A stretch of 64,000 nt of DNA, from NCBI GenBank assembly GCA_019459325.1, contig JAIBFA010000026.1, positions 1 to 64,000 on the forward strand, given 5' to 3'. Under the pieces are notes generated by a model. The model was not told the origin of the DNA. It saw nothing but the letters and a program-made list of their open reading frames with translations, and did no database searches. This document shows positions 34,228 through 40,845 of this stretch, piece by piece. This stretch comes from Thiobacillus sp. (GTDB lineage Bacteria > Pseudomonadota > Gammaproteobacteria > Burkholderiales > Thiobacillaceae). Numbering within the stretch: the stretch's first letter is position 1; the number at the start of each line of letters is the position of its first letter. The position numbers were made by a program, and so were the translations under genes.

Positions 34228-34842
34228 TCAATCGTCCCAGTCGTTGCGGCTGTTGTGCCAGCGTGCGTCGCGCCGGCCCTCGGCCACGGAAAAATCCACA
34301 TCCAGGGTCAGCCACTTGCCCGGCTTGTACGGCAAGTAGGTGGTGTATTCACGACCCTGGAAGCGGTAGCGCACGTCGTAGCCGGTCACAATCTGGCGAT
34401 AGTCGTCGTGAATGCGGCAGCGCTCGATCTGCTGCGGAACCGATTCGGTGCGGGTGCCGTTCTTGTTCCAGCGGTCGCCCACCACCGCACCGGTCGCCGC
34501 ACCGGCAGCGGCGGCGGCAACCCTGCCGTCGCCCTTGCCGACGGTGGAGCCGAGCAGGCCGCCGGCGATGGCGCCGAGAATCGCGCCGCCGGTGTTGCTG
34601 CCGTCGCGGTAGCTGCGCGTTTCATAGCCGACCGTTTCGGTCCAGCATTCGCGGCGAGGTTCGTTGACCGTTTCGTAGACCGGAACGCTCGACAAGACCC
34701 TGGCGCGGGTGGTGAAACCGTCCCTGTCGCCATGGCCGGCCTGCGCTGCGCCACTAACGGCAAGCAGTGCGGCAATCAGGGAGGTGTTCAGGAGGCGGGT
34801 GCCTTGATTCCCTTCAGGGTGCTTTAGGCTGCGTGATTTCAT
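34228..34842 (-). CDS. Glycine-zipper (2TM domain) outer-envelope protein
   Basis: A 204-residue exported protein. Signal-like N-terminus (NTSLIAALLAVSGAAQA, cleavage near residue 35 after a polar n-region), then a glycine-zipper segment GGAILGAIAGGLLGSTVGKGDG ... AAAGAATGAVVGD (about residues 85-120) typical of 2TM/Rick_17kDa-type membrane-spanning zippers. The C-terminal part (RCRIHDDYRQIVTGYDVRYRFQGREYTTYLP) resembles the usual partner domain in this family. Start at 34842 is fixed by GGAGAG five bases before the ATG; the open frame upstream runs through an intergenic stretch. Confidence 0.85.
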   Translation of the reverse strand: MKSRSLKHPEGNQGTRLLNTSLIAALLAVSGAAQAGHGDRDGFTTRARVLSSVPVYETVNEPRRECWTETVGYETRSYRDGSNTGGAILGAIAGGLLGSTVGKGDGRVAAAAAGAATGAVVGDRWNKNGTRTESVPQQIERCRIHDDYRQIVTGYDVRYRFQGREYTTYLPYKPGKWLTLDVDFSVAEGRRDARWHNSRNDWDD

Positions 34843-34876
34843 CGTTACTCTCCTCGTTACTTCAAAAGCAATCAGT

Positions 34877-35155
34877 TCAGCGACGACCGCGGGTGCGGGT
34901 ATCCTCTTCCGAACGTTCCCGTTGGCGACGCTCGTAGCCGTAGCCATAACCTTGCGGCTCATCACGGGCCTCGCGCTTCGAGGCGCGGCGGTCGTCCCTG
35001 CGGACATCGCGGGGATCCTGGCGTGCCTCGTCGGCGCGATCGCGCTTGGCCACGATGAACGCGTCATCCATGAAGTCGGGGGCAGCCTGAACCGGGGCGG
35101 CCAGAGCCAGTCCCAGTGCCGCCAGTCCGAAAATCCAAGTCTTGCGTGTGTTCAT
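34877..35155 (-). CDS. Small exported charged protein
   Basis: A 92-residue protein without a recognisable family. Signal peptide MNTRKTWIFGLAALGLALA with cleavage after QA near residue 24. The mature part is almost wholly Arg/Asp/Glu/Lys with a YGYGYE patch, so it is likely disordered in the periplasm. GGAGA seven bases before the ATG at 35155 decides the start over the ATG 12 bases upstream. It is divergent from the response regulator across 153 bases containing a GTAAC direct repeat. Confidence 0.75.
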   Translation of the reverse strand: MNTRKTWIFGLAALGLALAAPVQAAPDFMDDAFIVAKRDRADEARQDPRDVRRDDRRASKREARDEPQGYGYGYERRQRERSEEDTRTRGRR

Positions 35156-35308: not shown

Positions 35309-36022
35309 ATGGAAAAAGACACCATCTATGTCACCGACGACGACCCCGGCATCCGCGAACTGGTGGCCGAATATCTGAGCAGCCAGGGCTACGCGGTCGA
35401 GACCGCGGAGGACGCTGTCTCGCTCGATCGCCTGCTGGCCACCCGACTGCCCGACCTCCTGGTGCTCGACTGGATGATGCCGGGCGAGGATGGTCTGTCG
35501 GTGGCGCGACGATTGCGCGCGCAGCCGGGTTTTCCGCCCATCATCATGCTGTCGGCCAAGGGCGAGGACATCGACCGCATCATCGGCCTCGAGGTCGGCG
35601 CCGACGACTACCTGCCCAAGCCGTTCAACCCGCGCGAACTGCTGGCGCGCATCCGTGCAGTGATGCGGCGGCACGGCGGGATGATCGCGCCGGCAGTGGC
35701 CGACACCGCGCGGCTGATGCATTTCGGCCCGTTCGGCGTCAACCTCGACGCCCGTACGCTCACCCGCGACGGCACCGAAATCACGTTGACCAGCGGCGAA
35801 TACGAACTGCTGGAAATTTTCGTCACCCACGCCAACCGTGCGCTGTCGCGCGACTGGCTGATGGATCAGTTGCGCGGTTTCGAGCGCGACCCGTTCGACC
35901 GCAGCATCGACGTGCGGGTGAATCGCCTGCGCAAGAAAATCGAGGACGACCCGGCCAACCCCGCCTACATCCGCACCCAGCGCGGGCAGGGCTACCTGTT
36001 CGTGCCGCAGGGCAAGGGGTGA
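35309..36022 (+). CDS. OmpR/PhoB-family response regulator
   Basis: A 237-residue DNA-binding response regulator. Receiver domain residues 5-118: acidic pair DDDPG near residue 11, phospho-acceptor Asp54 in LLVLDWMMPGEDG, LSAKGEDID and the conserved Lys in YLPKPFNPREL. Winged-helix output domain residues 135-233 with LTSGEYELLEIFVTHANRALSRDWL and RSIDVRVNRLRKKIEDDP. No ribosome-binding site precedes the ATG. Four-base overlap with the kinase (GTGA), so the pair is one unit. Confidence 0.93.
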   Translation: MEKDTIYVTDDDPGIRELVAEYLSSQGYAVETAEDAVSLDRLLATRLPDLLVLDWMMPGEDGLSVARRLRAQPGFPPIIMLSAKGEDIDRIIGLEVGADDYLPKPFNPRELLARIRAVMRRHGGMIAPAVADTARLMHFGPFGVNLDARTLTRDGTEITLTSGEYELLEIFVTHANRALSRDWLMDQLRGFERDPFDRSIDVRVNRLRKKIEDDPANPAYIRTQRGQGYLFVPQGKG

Positions 36023-37305
36023 AGCACATTACGCGCTCGCTGTTCGCCCGCACCGCGCTGACGCTGGCGCTCGCCTTCATCGTGTTCCAGGTGGCGGCGT
36101 TCTGGGTGGTGACCCGCACCCTGATCGTACCGGTGGCGGAGCGCTCGGCCGACGATCTGGCCGGCCTGATCGTGTTGTCGGCGCAGACCTGGGTTGAACT
36201 GCCGCCCGAGACGCGCGCGGCGTTCGAACGCGAACTGGCGCGCCGTCACGGGCTACGCCTGACCACTCTCGACGTTGGGGCCACGGCGGATGCACCGCAT
36301 TTTGCCTTCCGCAGCCAGATCGAGGCGGCGCTGAGCCGGCGTGTGGGCGACGATATCGTTCTGCGCGGGGTGCCGGGCACCATGGCGGCGTGGCTGGATA
36401 TCCCGGTGGGCGGGCACGATCTGCATGCGGGCTTCTTTCCCGCCCGCTATGCCGTCAAGCCGCCACTGGCGGCCATCGCGGTCGTCGCGGTAGGCGCGTT
36501 TCTCAGCCTGCTGACCGCCCTTTTTCTGGTGCGACGCATCACGGTGCCGCTGGCGCGCGCGGCAGCGGCGGCCAGCCAGGTGGGCGCGGGCGAGCTGCCC
36601 GAGCCCCTGCCGGAAACCGGCCCCGCCGAGCTCGCCGAACTGGCACGCCGCTTCAATATCATGGCGGCCGAGGTGCGCGACCTGCTGGATAACCGTACCA
36701 CCCTGCTGGCGGGGATTTCGCATGACCTGCGCACCCCGATGACGCGTCTGCAGCTCAATCTGGAAATGCTGCGCGACGCGCCCAGCCCGGCACGCATCGA
36801 CCGCGCGGTGGCCGATCTGGCTGACATGAACAAGCTCATTTCAGGCTACCTGGAACTGGCGCGCACCACCCAGCCGGAGCAGAAGACGCGCTTCGATCTT
36901 GCGGGGCTACTGGAAGAGGCGGCAGCCGATGCGAATCTGCCGTGGCCGGGTGCAGCGTCCTGCGAGGTCGAGGCCGGACGCCTGGCGGTGCGGCAAATCG
37001 TTACGAACCTGATCCAGAACGCCCAGCGTTATGGCGGCGGCACGCCGGTCGAACTGGCGCTGGAATGTGCGGACAAGCAGGCGAGGGTGGTCGTGCGCGA
37101 TGCCGGTGAGGGCATTCCGGGTGATCAGCTGGAAAAGGTGTTCAGGCCGTTTTACCGGCTGGAAGCTTCGCGCTCGCAGGCTACGGGAGGAACCGGGTTG
37201 GGGCTGGCGATCGTGCGCCAGCTGGCGGAAACAAACGGCTGGAAAGTAACGCTCAGGAATCGTGCGACAGGCGGCCTGGAGGCCGTGCTGGAGATGCGTC
37301 GCTAG
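36019..37305 (+). CDS. Sensor histidine kinase
   Basis: A 428-residue EnvZ-like inner-membrane kinase partnering the preceding regulator. TM1 at about residues 10-32, a periplasmic domain of about 115 residues, TM2 near 150-172, a HAMP linker, then HisKA with the H-box ISHDLRTPMTRLQ (His235), N-box IVTNLIQNAQRYG, G1 VRDAGEGIP and G2 GGTGLGLAIVRQL. All phosphorelay motifs are intact. Starts with GTG inside the regulator's stop. It converges on a 51-codon gene whose stop is only two bases away. Confidence 0.93.
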   Translation: MKHITRSLFARTALTLALAFIVFQVAAFWVVTRTLIVPVAERSADDLAGLIVLSAQTWVELPPETRAAFERELARRHGLRLTTLDVGATADAPHFAFRSQIEAALSRRVGDDIVLRGVPGTMAAWLDIPVGGHDLHAGFFPARYAVKPPLAAIAVVAVGAFLSLLTALFLVRRITVPLARAAAAASQVGAGELPEPLPETGPAELAELARRFNIMAAEVRDLLDNRTTLLAGISHDLRTPMTRLQLNLEMLRDAPSPARIDRAVADLADMNKLISGYLELARTTQPEQKTRFDLAGLLEEAAADANLPWPGAASCEVEAGRLAVRQIVTNLIQNAQRYGGGTPVELALECADKQARVVVRDAGEGIPGDQLEKVFRPFYRLEASRSQATGGTGLGLAIVRQLAETNGWKVTLRNRATGGLEAVLEMRR

Positions 37306-37306
37306 G

Positions 37307-37462
37307 TCAGGCGCACTGCGCGGGGATGCGTCGCAATACCCGGAATTCGATGAACAGCAGCGTCAGGCTGAACATCGACATGCGGCAGGTGCTGCCGCTG
37401 AAGAAACCCAGCGGCGAGCGGGACAAGCTCAGGCTCACGCTGGTGGCTCGACCTACTTGCAT
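37307..37462 (-). CDS. Small protein, second of a tandem paralogous pair
   Basis: A 51-residue open frame starting MQVGRATSVSLSL and ending IPAQCA. Its ATG shares its A with the TGA of the preceding 50-residue gene, which implies coupled translation. Residues 10-48 align without gaps to that neighbour with 19 identities in 39, including SP, F.G.T.RMS, SL.L.F..F and R.PA, so the two arose by tandem duplication and both have stayed open. No signal peptide; a moderately hydrophobic stretch MSMFSLTLLFIEFRVL may associate with membrane. Function unknown to me. Stop codon is two bases from that of the histidine kinase on the other strand. Confidence 0.65.
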   Translation of the reverse strand: MQVGRATSVSLSLSRSPLGFFSGSTCRMSMFSLTLLFIEFRVLRRIPAQCA

Positions 37463-37614
37463 CAGGCGGCCGGCTGGCGGGCAAACAGGGAGAACTGCAC
37501 GAACATCAGCGACAGGCTGGTCAGACTCATGCGCTCGGTCTGGCCGTGAAACCAGGCAAAGGGAGACGAGCTGAGTTCGAGAACCAGTTGATTTTGGCCG
37601 AATTGAAGTTTCAT
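37462..37614 (-). CDS. Small protein, first of a tandem paralogous pair
   Basis: A 50-residue open frame, MKLQFGQNQLVLELSSSPF at the N-terminus and FSLFARQPAA at the end. A perfect AAGGAG lies seven bases before the ATG, and a sigma-54-type promoter (TGGCAC-N5-TTGCA) lies 37 bases upstream, so a real gene is likely despite its size. A hydrophobic segment RMSLTSLSLMFVQFSLF covers the C-terminal third; no signal peptide or cysteine. The paralogue follows directly in a TGATG overlap. I do not recognise the family. Confidence 0.75.
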   Translation of the reverse strand: MKLQFGQNQLVLELSSSPFAWFHGQTERMSLTSLSLMFVQFSLFARQPAA

Positions 37615-37650
37615 GATGATCTCCTTGGAGGGGTTGCTTGCCTGTTTACT

Positions 37651-37666
37651 TGCAACGCCTGTGCCA
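37651..37666 (-). promoter_or_regulatory. Sigma-54-type promoter for the tandem small genes
   Basis: On the minus strand TGGCAC AGGCG TTGCA: the -24 TGGCAC and -12 TTGC(A/T) elements of RpoN promoters with correct spacing; the only departure from the usual TGGCACG-N4-TTGCW is A for G at position seven. Predicted start is near 37640, leaving a short leader that holds AAGGAG and the ATG at 37614. Confidence 0.65.
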
Positions 37667-37889
37667 GTCGGATGCGGGTGGGGATGCTGGAAATAAGCGC
37701 CAACAAAACAACAGCTTGCTGGTACAGGCTTGAAAGGGGCGCTAGGCTTTGTTGCACGGGTTGACGGAAAACCGTCACCCCGTGTCGAAGCGGCAAACAG
37801 CCGCACCCTGAGCAGGCCGGAATGAAACAACAGGGTAGAATCCGGCTTTCGATTTGGGCGGGGCGTGTCCTGCGCGCCGCATCTTCTGC

Positions 37890-39854
<1,965 letters not shown>

Positions 39855-39975
39855 GTTTGCACCCAACATGCCTTGCCTATGAGAAACATTGCTTAGCTTG
39901 AATGGAGGCTGGTATGTCGGGTTTTTTTACAGACTGGCTTGTTTAAGGTGCATACACGGACAGGCATTCGAGTAT

Positions 39976-40086: not shown

Positions 40087-40845
40087 ATGATTTTTCGCAT
40101 AGCCGCTCCTCTCCTGGTTCTGTTTGTGTATGGCCAGGCCATGGCTACGACCTTTCAGATCGACCCAACACAAAGTGAGGTTCGTGCTTATGTGCCGAGT
40201 TGGGAAAGTCAGCGCTCATATAACAATTGGTGGGAACCTGGATTAACTGACCCCGATACCGGATTGCCTATTCCAGAACCTGAACTCTATGACTGGACAT
40301 TAACCTGGCCACTCACTCCTTTCTCCATTCAAGGACAGTTTCAGTTGGACGAGCAGAAATCACCCTGGGTTCAGGATGTTAGCCGGCTCCAGCTTTCCAA
40401 TCTGAATATCATCAGCGATGTGCCGGATTACGCCGACTTCAGCTTGGATATGGCCACACTGCTTTCATACACACCATCTAGCCAACATGTCCAATGGAGT
40501 AGTGGTGTTTGCTATGACGATAATTTTTATGGAGGCAACTGGTCATGCACTGGTTTTCAGAATGGGATCGTGTGGGAAGTAGAGGGTGGTTTCGACGGGG
40601 AGACTCTGGATATTTCAGGGTACTTCTGGGGAGTGATGACGCCGGAGCCCTACGACTACAACACTTTCACTGAATTAGCCGACACGACCCCTCCCGACTA
40701 TCTGGTTAATTTCGACGGTGTAAATGGGCTTTATACATTTCATGTTGTTGCGGTGCAGAGCGTGCCTGAGCCAAAAACCTTCATTCTGATGTTTGCGGGT
40801 TTTCTGCTGATTATGGCCAGACTGCAATATACGAAGAGGGTGTAA
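40087..40845 (+). CDS. PEP-CTERM sorting domain protein
   Basis: A 252-residue exported protein with the PEP-CTERM sorting tail: VPEPKTFILMFAGFLLIMARL then a short basic end (YTKRV), at residues 226-252. Such tails are processed by exosortase (EpsH/XrtA) systems in biofilm-forming Gram-negatives. Signal peptide residues 1-20 ending AMA. The mature domain is acidic, rich in Trp, Tyr, Asp and Ser with three cysteines or fewer, and matches no domain I recognise. Base and codon use are visibly more AT-rich than in the neighbours on both sides (uup-like gene and glyQ), and no exosortase or polysaccharide gene is nearby, so it may be acquired or fast-evolving. Confidence 0.85.
   Translation: MIFRIAAPLLVLFVYGQAMATTFQIDPTQSEVRAYVPSWESQRSYNNWWEPGLTDPDTGLPIPEPELYDWTLTWPLTPFSIQGQFQLDEQKSPWVQDVSRLQLSNLNIISDVPDYADFSLDMATLLSYTPSSQHVQWSSGVCYDDNFYGGNWSCTGFQNGIVWEVEGGFDGETLDISGYFWGVMTPEPYDYNTFTELADTTPPDYLVNFDGVNGLYTFHVVAVQSVPEPKTFILMFAGFLLIMARLQYTKRV

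Follow-up and report, generated by a model that had tools for sequence, protein, structure and literature searches.

Two small genes behind a sigma-54-type promoter

Two small open reading frames lie head to tail on the minus strand of the window, the 64,000-nucleotide stretch of Thiobacillus DNA analysed here. The first gene (37614-37462) encodes a protein of 50 aa, translated as MKLQFGQNQLVLELSSSPFAWFHGQTERMSLTSLSLMFVQFSLFARQPAA, and the second (37462-37307) encodes its paralogue of 51 aa, translated as MQVGRATSVSLSLSRSPLGFFSGSTCRMSMFSLTLLFIEFRVLRRIPAQCA. Both frames were open as originally predicted, and they overlap by a single base (TGATG), the last base of the first stop codon being the first base of the second start codon. 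The 19 shared residues reported for the two proteins were reproduced over a 39-residue ungapped stretch; in 5000 shuffles of the second protein the highest count was 15, and 19 was never attained. When the window's own genome was searched with the first protein, the second was retrieved with an E-value of 8.7e-7. The perfect Shine-Dalgarno sequence AAGGAG claimed for the first gene is present on the minus strand at 37626-37621, as read in the sequence.

The pair does converge on a histidine kinase gene, as had been claimed, but the stops are not two bases apart: the kinase stop (37303-37305) and the stop of the second frame (37309-37307) have one base between them. The three small exported genes described as neighbours are likewise present (frames between 33820 and 35830, export being judged by eye from the N-termini), but they are found on the far side of the two-component genes and are oriented away from these. 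They include a glycine-zipper protein (34228-35067, minus strand; Pfam Rick_17kDa_Anti), and similar-looking genes occur on the same side of the two-component genes at loci L107 and L108.

The sigma-54 (-24/-12) promoter TGGCACAGGCGTTGCA (37651-37666, minus strand) stands 37 nt ahead of the first gene and is the sole exact match to TGGCAC-N5-TTGCA in the window. With one mismatch allowed, about two matches per window are expected by chance; the promoter motif alone is therefore weak evidence, and it is its conservation that makes the promoter strong.

Conservation and selection within Thiobacillus

We searched 56 genomes of the genus, mostly records named Thiobacillus, to which the window's genome belongs. 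With the first protein as query, the first gene was found in 48/56 genomes, with a second copy behind it in all 48. A profile search matched 49/56, the extra match being a fragment at a contig edge, and detected no copy in the remaining seven, two of which are 94 and 99% complete (8 and 6% contaminated). The loci, 61 in all, were reduced by identity over the first 330 bases to 44 distinct Thiobacillus loci; counts over these 44 are counts over related sequences and not over independent events. GGAG was present within 15 nt of the first-gene start in 43/44 loci. The second gene started at the overlap in 40 of the 44, and the other four departed by -9, +3, +3 and +39 bases. For all loci, if several starts were possible the script took the one nearest to the overlap.

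TGGCA and TTGC, six bases apart, were invariant in all 44 loci, and the first spacer base was C in 43. Thus GG at -24 and GC at -12, with 10 bp between them, were found in 44/44 loci. The promoter core lies 35-39 nt ahead of the start codon, inside a longer well-kept block. RpoN was encoded, with a strong match of the DNA-binding domain, in all 16 genomes tested. In a complete Thiobacillus genome TGGCAYNNNNNTTGC occurred 22 times as against 2 for the reversed control. Seventeen of the 22 occurrences, the small-gene promoter included, fell inside some frame of at least 300 codons, so that not every occurrence need be a promoter.

The third-codon-position statistics of both frames are those of coding DNA. 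Substitutions were concentrated at the third positions of both, and pairwise pN/pS was 0.158 for the first frame (43 loci) and 0.318 for the second (44 loci). Where both neighbours allowed comparison (37 loci), the small genes gave 0.193 and 0.355, the 5' part of the ABC-F gene 0.179 and the 3' part of the kinase gene 0.263. Synonymous divergence in the same loci was 0.335 and 0.416 for the small genes and 0.347 and 0.449 for the neighbours. Low values (0.262 and 0.436) were also obtained in one further frame, an antisense one whose third positions coincide with those of the real frame. Judged from these sequence comparisons, namely the pN/pS values and a synonymous divergence like that of the neighbouring genes, selection acts at the protein level in both frames.

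Relatives outside the genus

Homologues were found not only in the source strain but across the genus, in the family and in the order, and the two genes are members of a real protein family that has no curated name. Two further genera of the family yielded divergent tandem pairs, five of their genomes having two copies each. These pairs also converge on a kinase gene (Pfam-confirmed in L107), and those at L106-L108 are directly divergent from glyQ (Pfam-confirmed in L106); in the window the pair is separated from glyQ by an ABC-F gene and a PEP-CTERM-like gene. More distant relatives, all single, come from three genera in three other families of the order: one genus contributed eight genomes and the other two contributed one each. 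Since these distant homologues gave one match each, pairing is not required everywhere. The relative at L122 also adjoins glycyl-tRNA synthetase genes, a point in favour of common descent. Among 29 aligned members, Phe22 and Thr26 were invariant and Arg28 nearly so. No copy was found in the near-complete genome G518 of a positive genus; because of this absence and that from 7/56 genomes of Thiobacillus, the pair may be dispensable.

Class-wide searches of 369 genomes, made once with the first profile and once with a broader one, brought up no credible member beyond the order. A match in G202 (5.8e-5, broader profile) was rejected, having a stop inside the frame and no matching small gene, and a match in G267 (8e-4, first profile) was not recovered at E <= 0.001 with the broader profile. 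Two order-level matches, in G757 and G580 (E about 1e-3), were also rejected; they covered only 28-30 residues, and neither had a -24/-12 match (0/2).

The homologues outside the genus were located by protein alone, and the promoter was recognised afterwards. A -24/-12 match occurred at the corresponding place in all 15 of these loci, 10 reading TGGCAY-N5-TTGC and 5 with one departure, the relaxed pattern having been fixed after some of the loci had been seen. The original question of whether pair and promoter are conserved can thus be answered: they are kept together across the loci examined.

The end of the kinase gene was found in 38/44 Thiobacillus loci. In g363, a related genus, the convergent neighbour is a glycerate-kinase gene, confirmed by Pfam in L118 and recognised from its resemblance in L119, L121 and L123; in L124 of this genus a 2-hydroxyacid dehydrogenase gene takes that place. 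The kinase adjacency is probably not functional, since it is kept in Thiobacillus and in two further genera of the family and is absent from the distant loci whose neighbours were listed.

Predicted proteins

Neither protein of the window had a match in Pfam, NCBIfam or PHROGs, and no relative had one in Pfam (eight tested) or NCBIfam (five tested). Neither carried a PEP-CTERM motif by Pfam or NCBIfam, and no signal peptide was seen by eye, the only means used. No transmembrane helix was indicated, the 19-residue hydropathy maxima being 0.95 and 1.26 and the models all-beta.

AlphaFold modelled both proteins as antiparallel sheets, with a mean pLDDT of 84.9 for the first (two of its five models only being confident) and 86.5 for the second. 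The strands were predicted at residues 8-14, 19-25, 29-36 and 39-46, with a short extra strand at 2-5, in the first protein, and at residues 7-13, 18-24, 28-35 and 38-45 in the second. Foldseek gave no match at E <= 0.001 for either model, and the fold therefore suggests no function. The top PDB match of the second protein was the alternative fold of lymphotactin (E 0.15), which is a dimeric all-beta form. Alternating residues give each predicted sheet one hydrophobic face. Because an isolated sheet that exposes a hydrophobic face usually forms dimers, the modelled proteins probably pair, as a heterodimer or as two homodimers.

Upstream elements and candidate activators

All counts of upstream elements given here were taken over related sequences. 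Between the promoter and the upstream sites lies an A+T-rich stretch with an IHF-like sequence (37691-37726, approximate limits). Its mean GC content was 36% in Thiobacillus, as against 64-67% on either side, and 32% in the loci outside the genus. The best match to the IHF consensus was 8 or 9 of 9 in 42/59 loci, about 5 being expected from shuffles. Further upstream, the palindrome TGACGGTTTTCCGTCA (37762-37777), a candidate activator site, starts 111 bases before -24. TGACGG-N4-CCGTCA was found in 37 of 44 Thiobacillus upstream regions and in none of 15 others, and is thus confined to Thiobacillus among the loci examined; in 7/8 Thiobacillus genomes it occurs once per genome, only at the small-gene locus, and in the eighth it is missing. 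A TGT-N11-ACA element, TGTCGAAGCGGCAAACA (37783-37799, plus strand), recurs in position and is a second candidate activator site. It stands at -132/-133 in 27/44 Thiobacillus upstream regions, and within 180 nt it was found in 29/44 of these and in 4/15 others (shuffles 0.9 and 0.4), while control spacings of 6-10 and 12-16 gave at most 5/44. On sequence grounds, the IHF-like stretch and the conserved elements would be as expected of an enhancer-dependent promoter.

The window's genome encodes eight strong enhancer-binding proteins, two of which NCBIfam names above cut-off, as NtrC and PrsR. These two, a protein that we take to be PilR-like and the regulator RR090 had clear orthologues in all four other lineages tested; the remaining four were missing or weak in at least one. 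The latter were rejected as activators: GlrR, whose site starts TGTC, and a NifA-like protein each lacked an orthologue in two of the four lineages, a PAS-type protein was missing in one and weak (43%) in another, and the best match of RR089 in G760 was only 42%. RR090 was 70-89% identical across the four lineages, and its best NCBIfam score was with the PrsR model, below its cut-off. Its neighbours encode a secretin, an AAA/SPOR protein and a TPR protein, and in G520 also an MshEN/T2SSE ATPase.

Promoters were also seen near other genes of these genomes. At L066 and L091 (window's genome, contig 90) the sigma-54-type promoter TGGCACGCCTGTTGCA is divergent from a PAS-type enhancer-binding protein and precedes a gene resembling, by eye, sulfide:quinone oxidoreductase; this may be a FisR-type sulfide-response unit. 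At L065 and L176, in two Thiobacillus genomes, a gene that looks pilin-like by eye stands behind a sigma-54-type promoter.

PrsR is tied to surface structures through the PEP-CTERM/exopolysaccharide system, and the spacer of its published box averages 62.8 nt (Haft et al. 2006, PMC1569441); PilR is tied to surface structures in PMC6058289. We rebuilt the PrsR box from promoters with TTTACA 46-76 nt before the -24/-12 site. This search gave 21 matches in 12/13 genomes and none in the reversed control. The matrix was made from 20 of the 21 loci and the box in the window, comprising 17 distinct boxes, of which two (scores 6.2 and 8.7) may be false; since TTTACA is fixed by the search pattern, the matrix penalises diverged right halves. 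No canonical PrsR box (17 nt, ending TTTACA, about 63 nt before the promoter) was found in the upstream regions scored, namely 15 of the 44 from Thiobacillus and all 15 others. The best scores were 11.3 (L121) and 10.0 (L118), as against 20-25 for 15/17 source boxes, and the best among the 15 Thiobacillus upstream regions was 9.4 (L060), at a different place. In one related genus a TGT-N11-ACA sequence, such as TGTCGACGATTCGAACA, starts 80-82 nt before -24 in 4/8 loci, so that the spacer is 63-65 nt long; the PrsR box and this upstream site also have the left half TGTCGA in common.

Within the window, the gene at 40087-40845 encodes a C-terminus that weakly resembles the PEP-CTERM type, scoring under the cut-offs of Pfam and NCBIfam. 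As a PrsR-like box, TGTCGGGTTTTTTTACA, lies upstream of it at 39915-39931 with GG-N10-GC further down, it may be a PrsR target.

Alternative explanations

It is possible, if on the whole doubtful, that PrsR binds a diverged upstream box and co-activates the pair with PEP-CTERM genes. The orthologues of PrsR in all four lineages tested, the left half-site and spacer in half of the eight loci of the related genus (close to the published mean given in PMC1569441), and the PrsR-like box of the PEP-CTERM-like gene about 2.4 kb away are consistent with this, but the matrix scores of at most 11.3 at the small genes argue against it. Rather unlikely, in our estimate, is control by another enhancer-binding protein, either RR090 of the pilus-like cluster or PilR, with the pair serving a type IV pilus-like machinery. 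The strong identity of RR090 in four lineages and its place beside secretin, AAA/SPOR and TPR genes would suit such control, as would the TGT-N11-AGA with nearby GTCT elements that PMC6058289 calls a hallmark of PilR sites. However, GTCT elements are irregular at the small genes, the upstream regions of the sigma-54-preceded pilin-like genes of two Thiobacillus genomes have neither the palindrome nor TGT-N11-ACA, and by co-occurrence RR090 and PilR are indistinguishable from NtrC and PrsR.

The other alternatives concern the nature of the unit itself. A role of the proteins as modulators of the neighbouring OmpR/EnvZ-like two-component system (35309-37305), like that of MgrB, is suggested by the convergent kinase gene in 38/44 Thiobacillus loci and in two further genera of the family; we consider it very unlikely, as relatives elsewhere adjoin glycerate kinase, 2-hydroxyacid dehydrogenase, glycyl-tRNA synthetase or other genes, and the proteins show no transmembrane helix, whereas MgrB has one. 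Two small overlapping genes might also form a toxin-antitoxin module or be a phage remnant, yet the two genes are paralogous and occupy the same place throughout the genus, and sigma-54 control is unusual for toxin-antitoxin modules. PHROGs had no family for either protein, and the first had no relative in viral contigs and matched phages only at E 9-10. This reading is highly improbable. Some sigma-54 promoters drive small RNAs, and the conserved unit might have been such an RNA with incidental frames; the third-position substitution bias in both frames and a synonymous divergence like that of the ABC-F and kinase genes largely refute this, and the lone Rfam match in 36800-38200 was far below cut-off, leaving the small RNA with hardly any probability.

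Proposed role of the pair

The explanation that we favour, with a confidence slightly short of even, is a translationally coupled sigma-54 operon of two cytosolic sheet proteins that act as an on-demand adaptor in an envelope or surface-structure programme. RNA polymerase with sigma-54 (RpoN) would transcribe the two genes together, activated by an enhancer-binding protein, probably with the aid of IHF, from sites about 95-135 bp upstream of -24. The one-base overlap would couple translation of the second gene to that of the first. The products, two small antiparallel-sheet proteins by predicted fold, would probably pair through their hydrophobic faces, giving the heterodimer or the two homodimers. 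They may serve as an adaptor or modulator made on demand, rather than as an enzyme, a toxin or an exported structural protein, and the likely setting would be exopolysaccharide/PEP-CTERM or pili.

A broader proposal is more speculative, and we hold it to be possible though improbable: an undescribed family of cytosolic sheet proteins of about 50 residues, tied to sigma-54 control in part of one betaproteobacterial order, would have begun as a single gene. In Thiobacillaceae it would have been duplicated and become fixed as a coupled pair forming a heterodimer, which would be a dedicated effector of a regulon for surface structures and work as a protein-protein adaptor of a new kind.

Annotation tends to pass over genes of this length, and it is from annotated genes that sigma-54 regulons are mostly compiled. 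The present family, for which no curated model exists, goes with a sigma-54 promoter that has an invariant core throughout a genus, and the same type of promoter precedes relatives found by protein sequence alone. This gives a testable entry to a regulon member in sulfur-oxidising bacteria, and the single gene and the duplicated pair offer a comparison for the divergence of small coupled paralogues.

Comparison with known systems

MgrB, SafA and MzrA are small-protein modulators of sensor kinases. The pair resembles them in its length of about 50 residues and in the kinase gene adjacent in the family, but differs in being all-beta and soluble by prediction and in that the kinase adjacency is lost elsewhere. 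With PilR-activated promoters it shares the type of TGT-N11 spacing, and a PilR-like protein is encoded in all lineages tested; in contrast, its products are not pilins and GTCT elements are irregular. The likeness to the PEP-CTERM/PrsR regulon (PMC1569441) lies in a sigma-54 promoter with an upstream site, in PrsR being encoded, and in a similar left half-site and spacing in one related genus, whereas no canonical box ending TTTACA was found in the upstream regions scored and the products show neither PEP-CTERM tag nor signal peptide. From sigma-54 promoters with known enhancers the locus differs in that its upstream elements are candidate sites that could be matched to no known activator. 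It is nevertheless like sigma-54 promoters with an enhancer and an IHF site in its TGGCAC-N5-TTGCA promoter, its A+T-rich IHF-like stretch, its upstream elements at about -95 to -135 from -24 and the RpoN encoded alongside.
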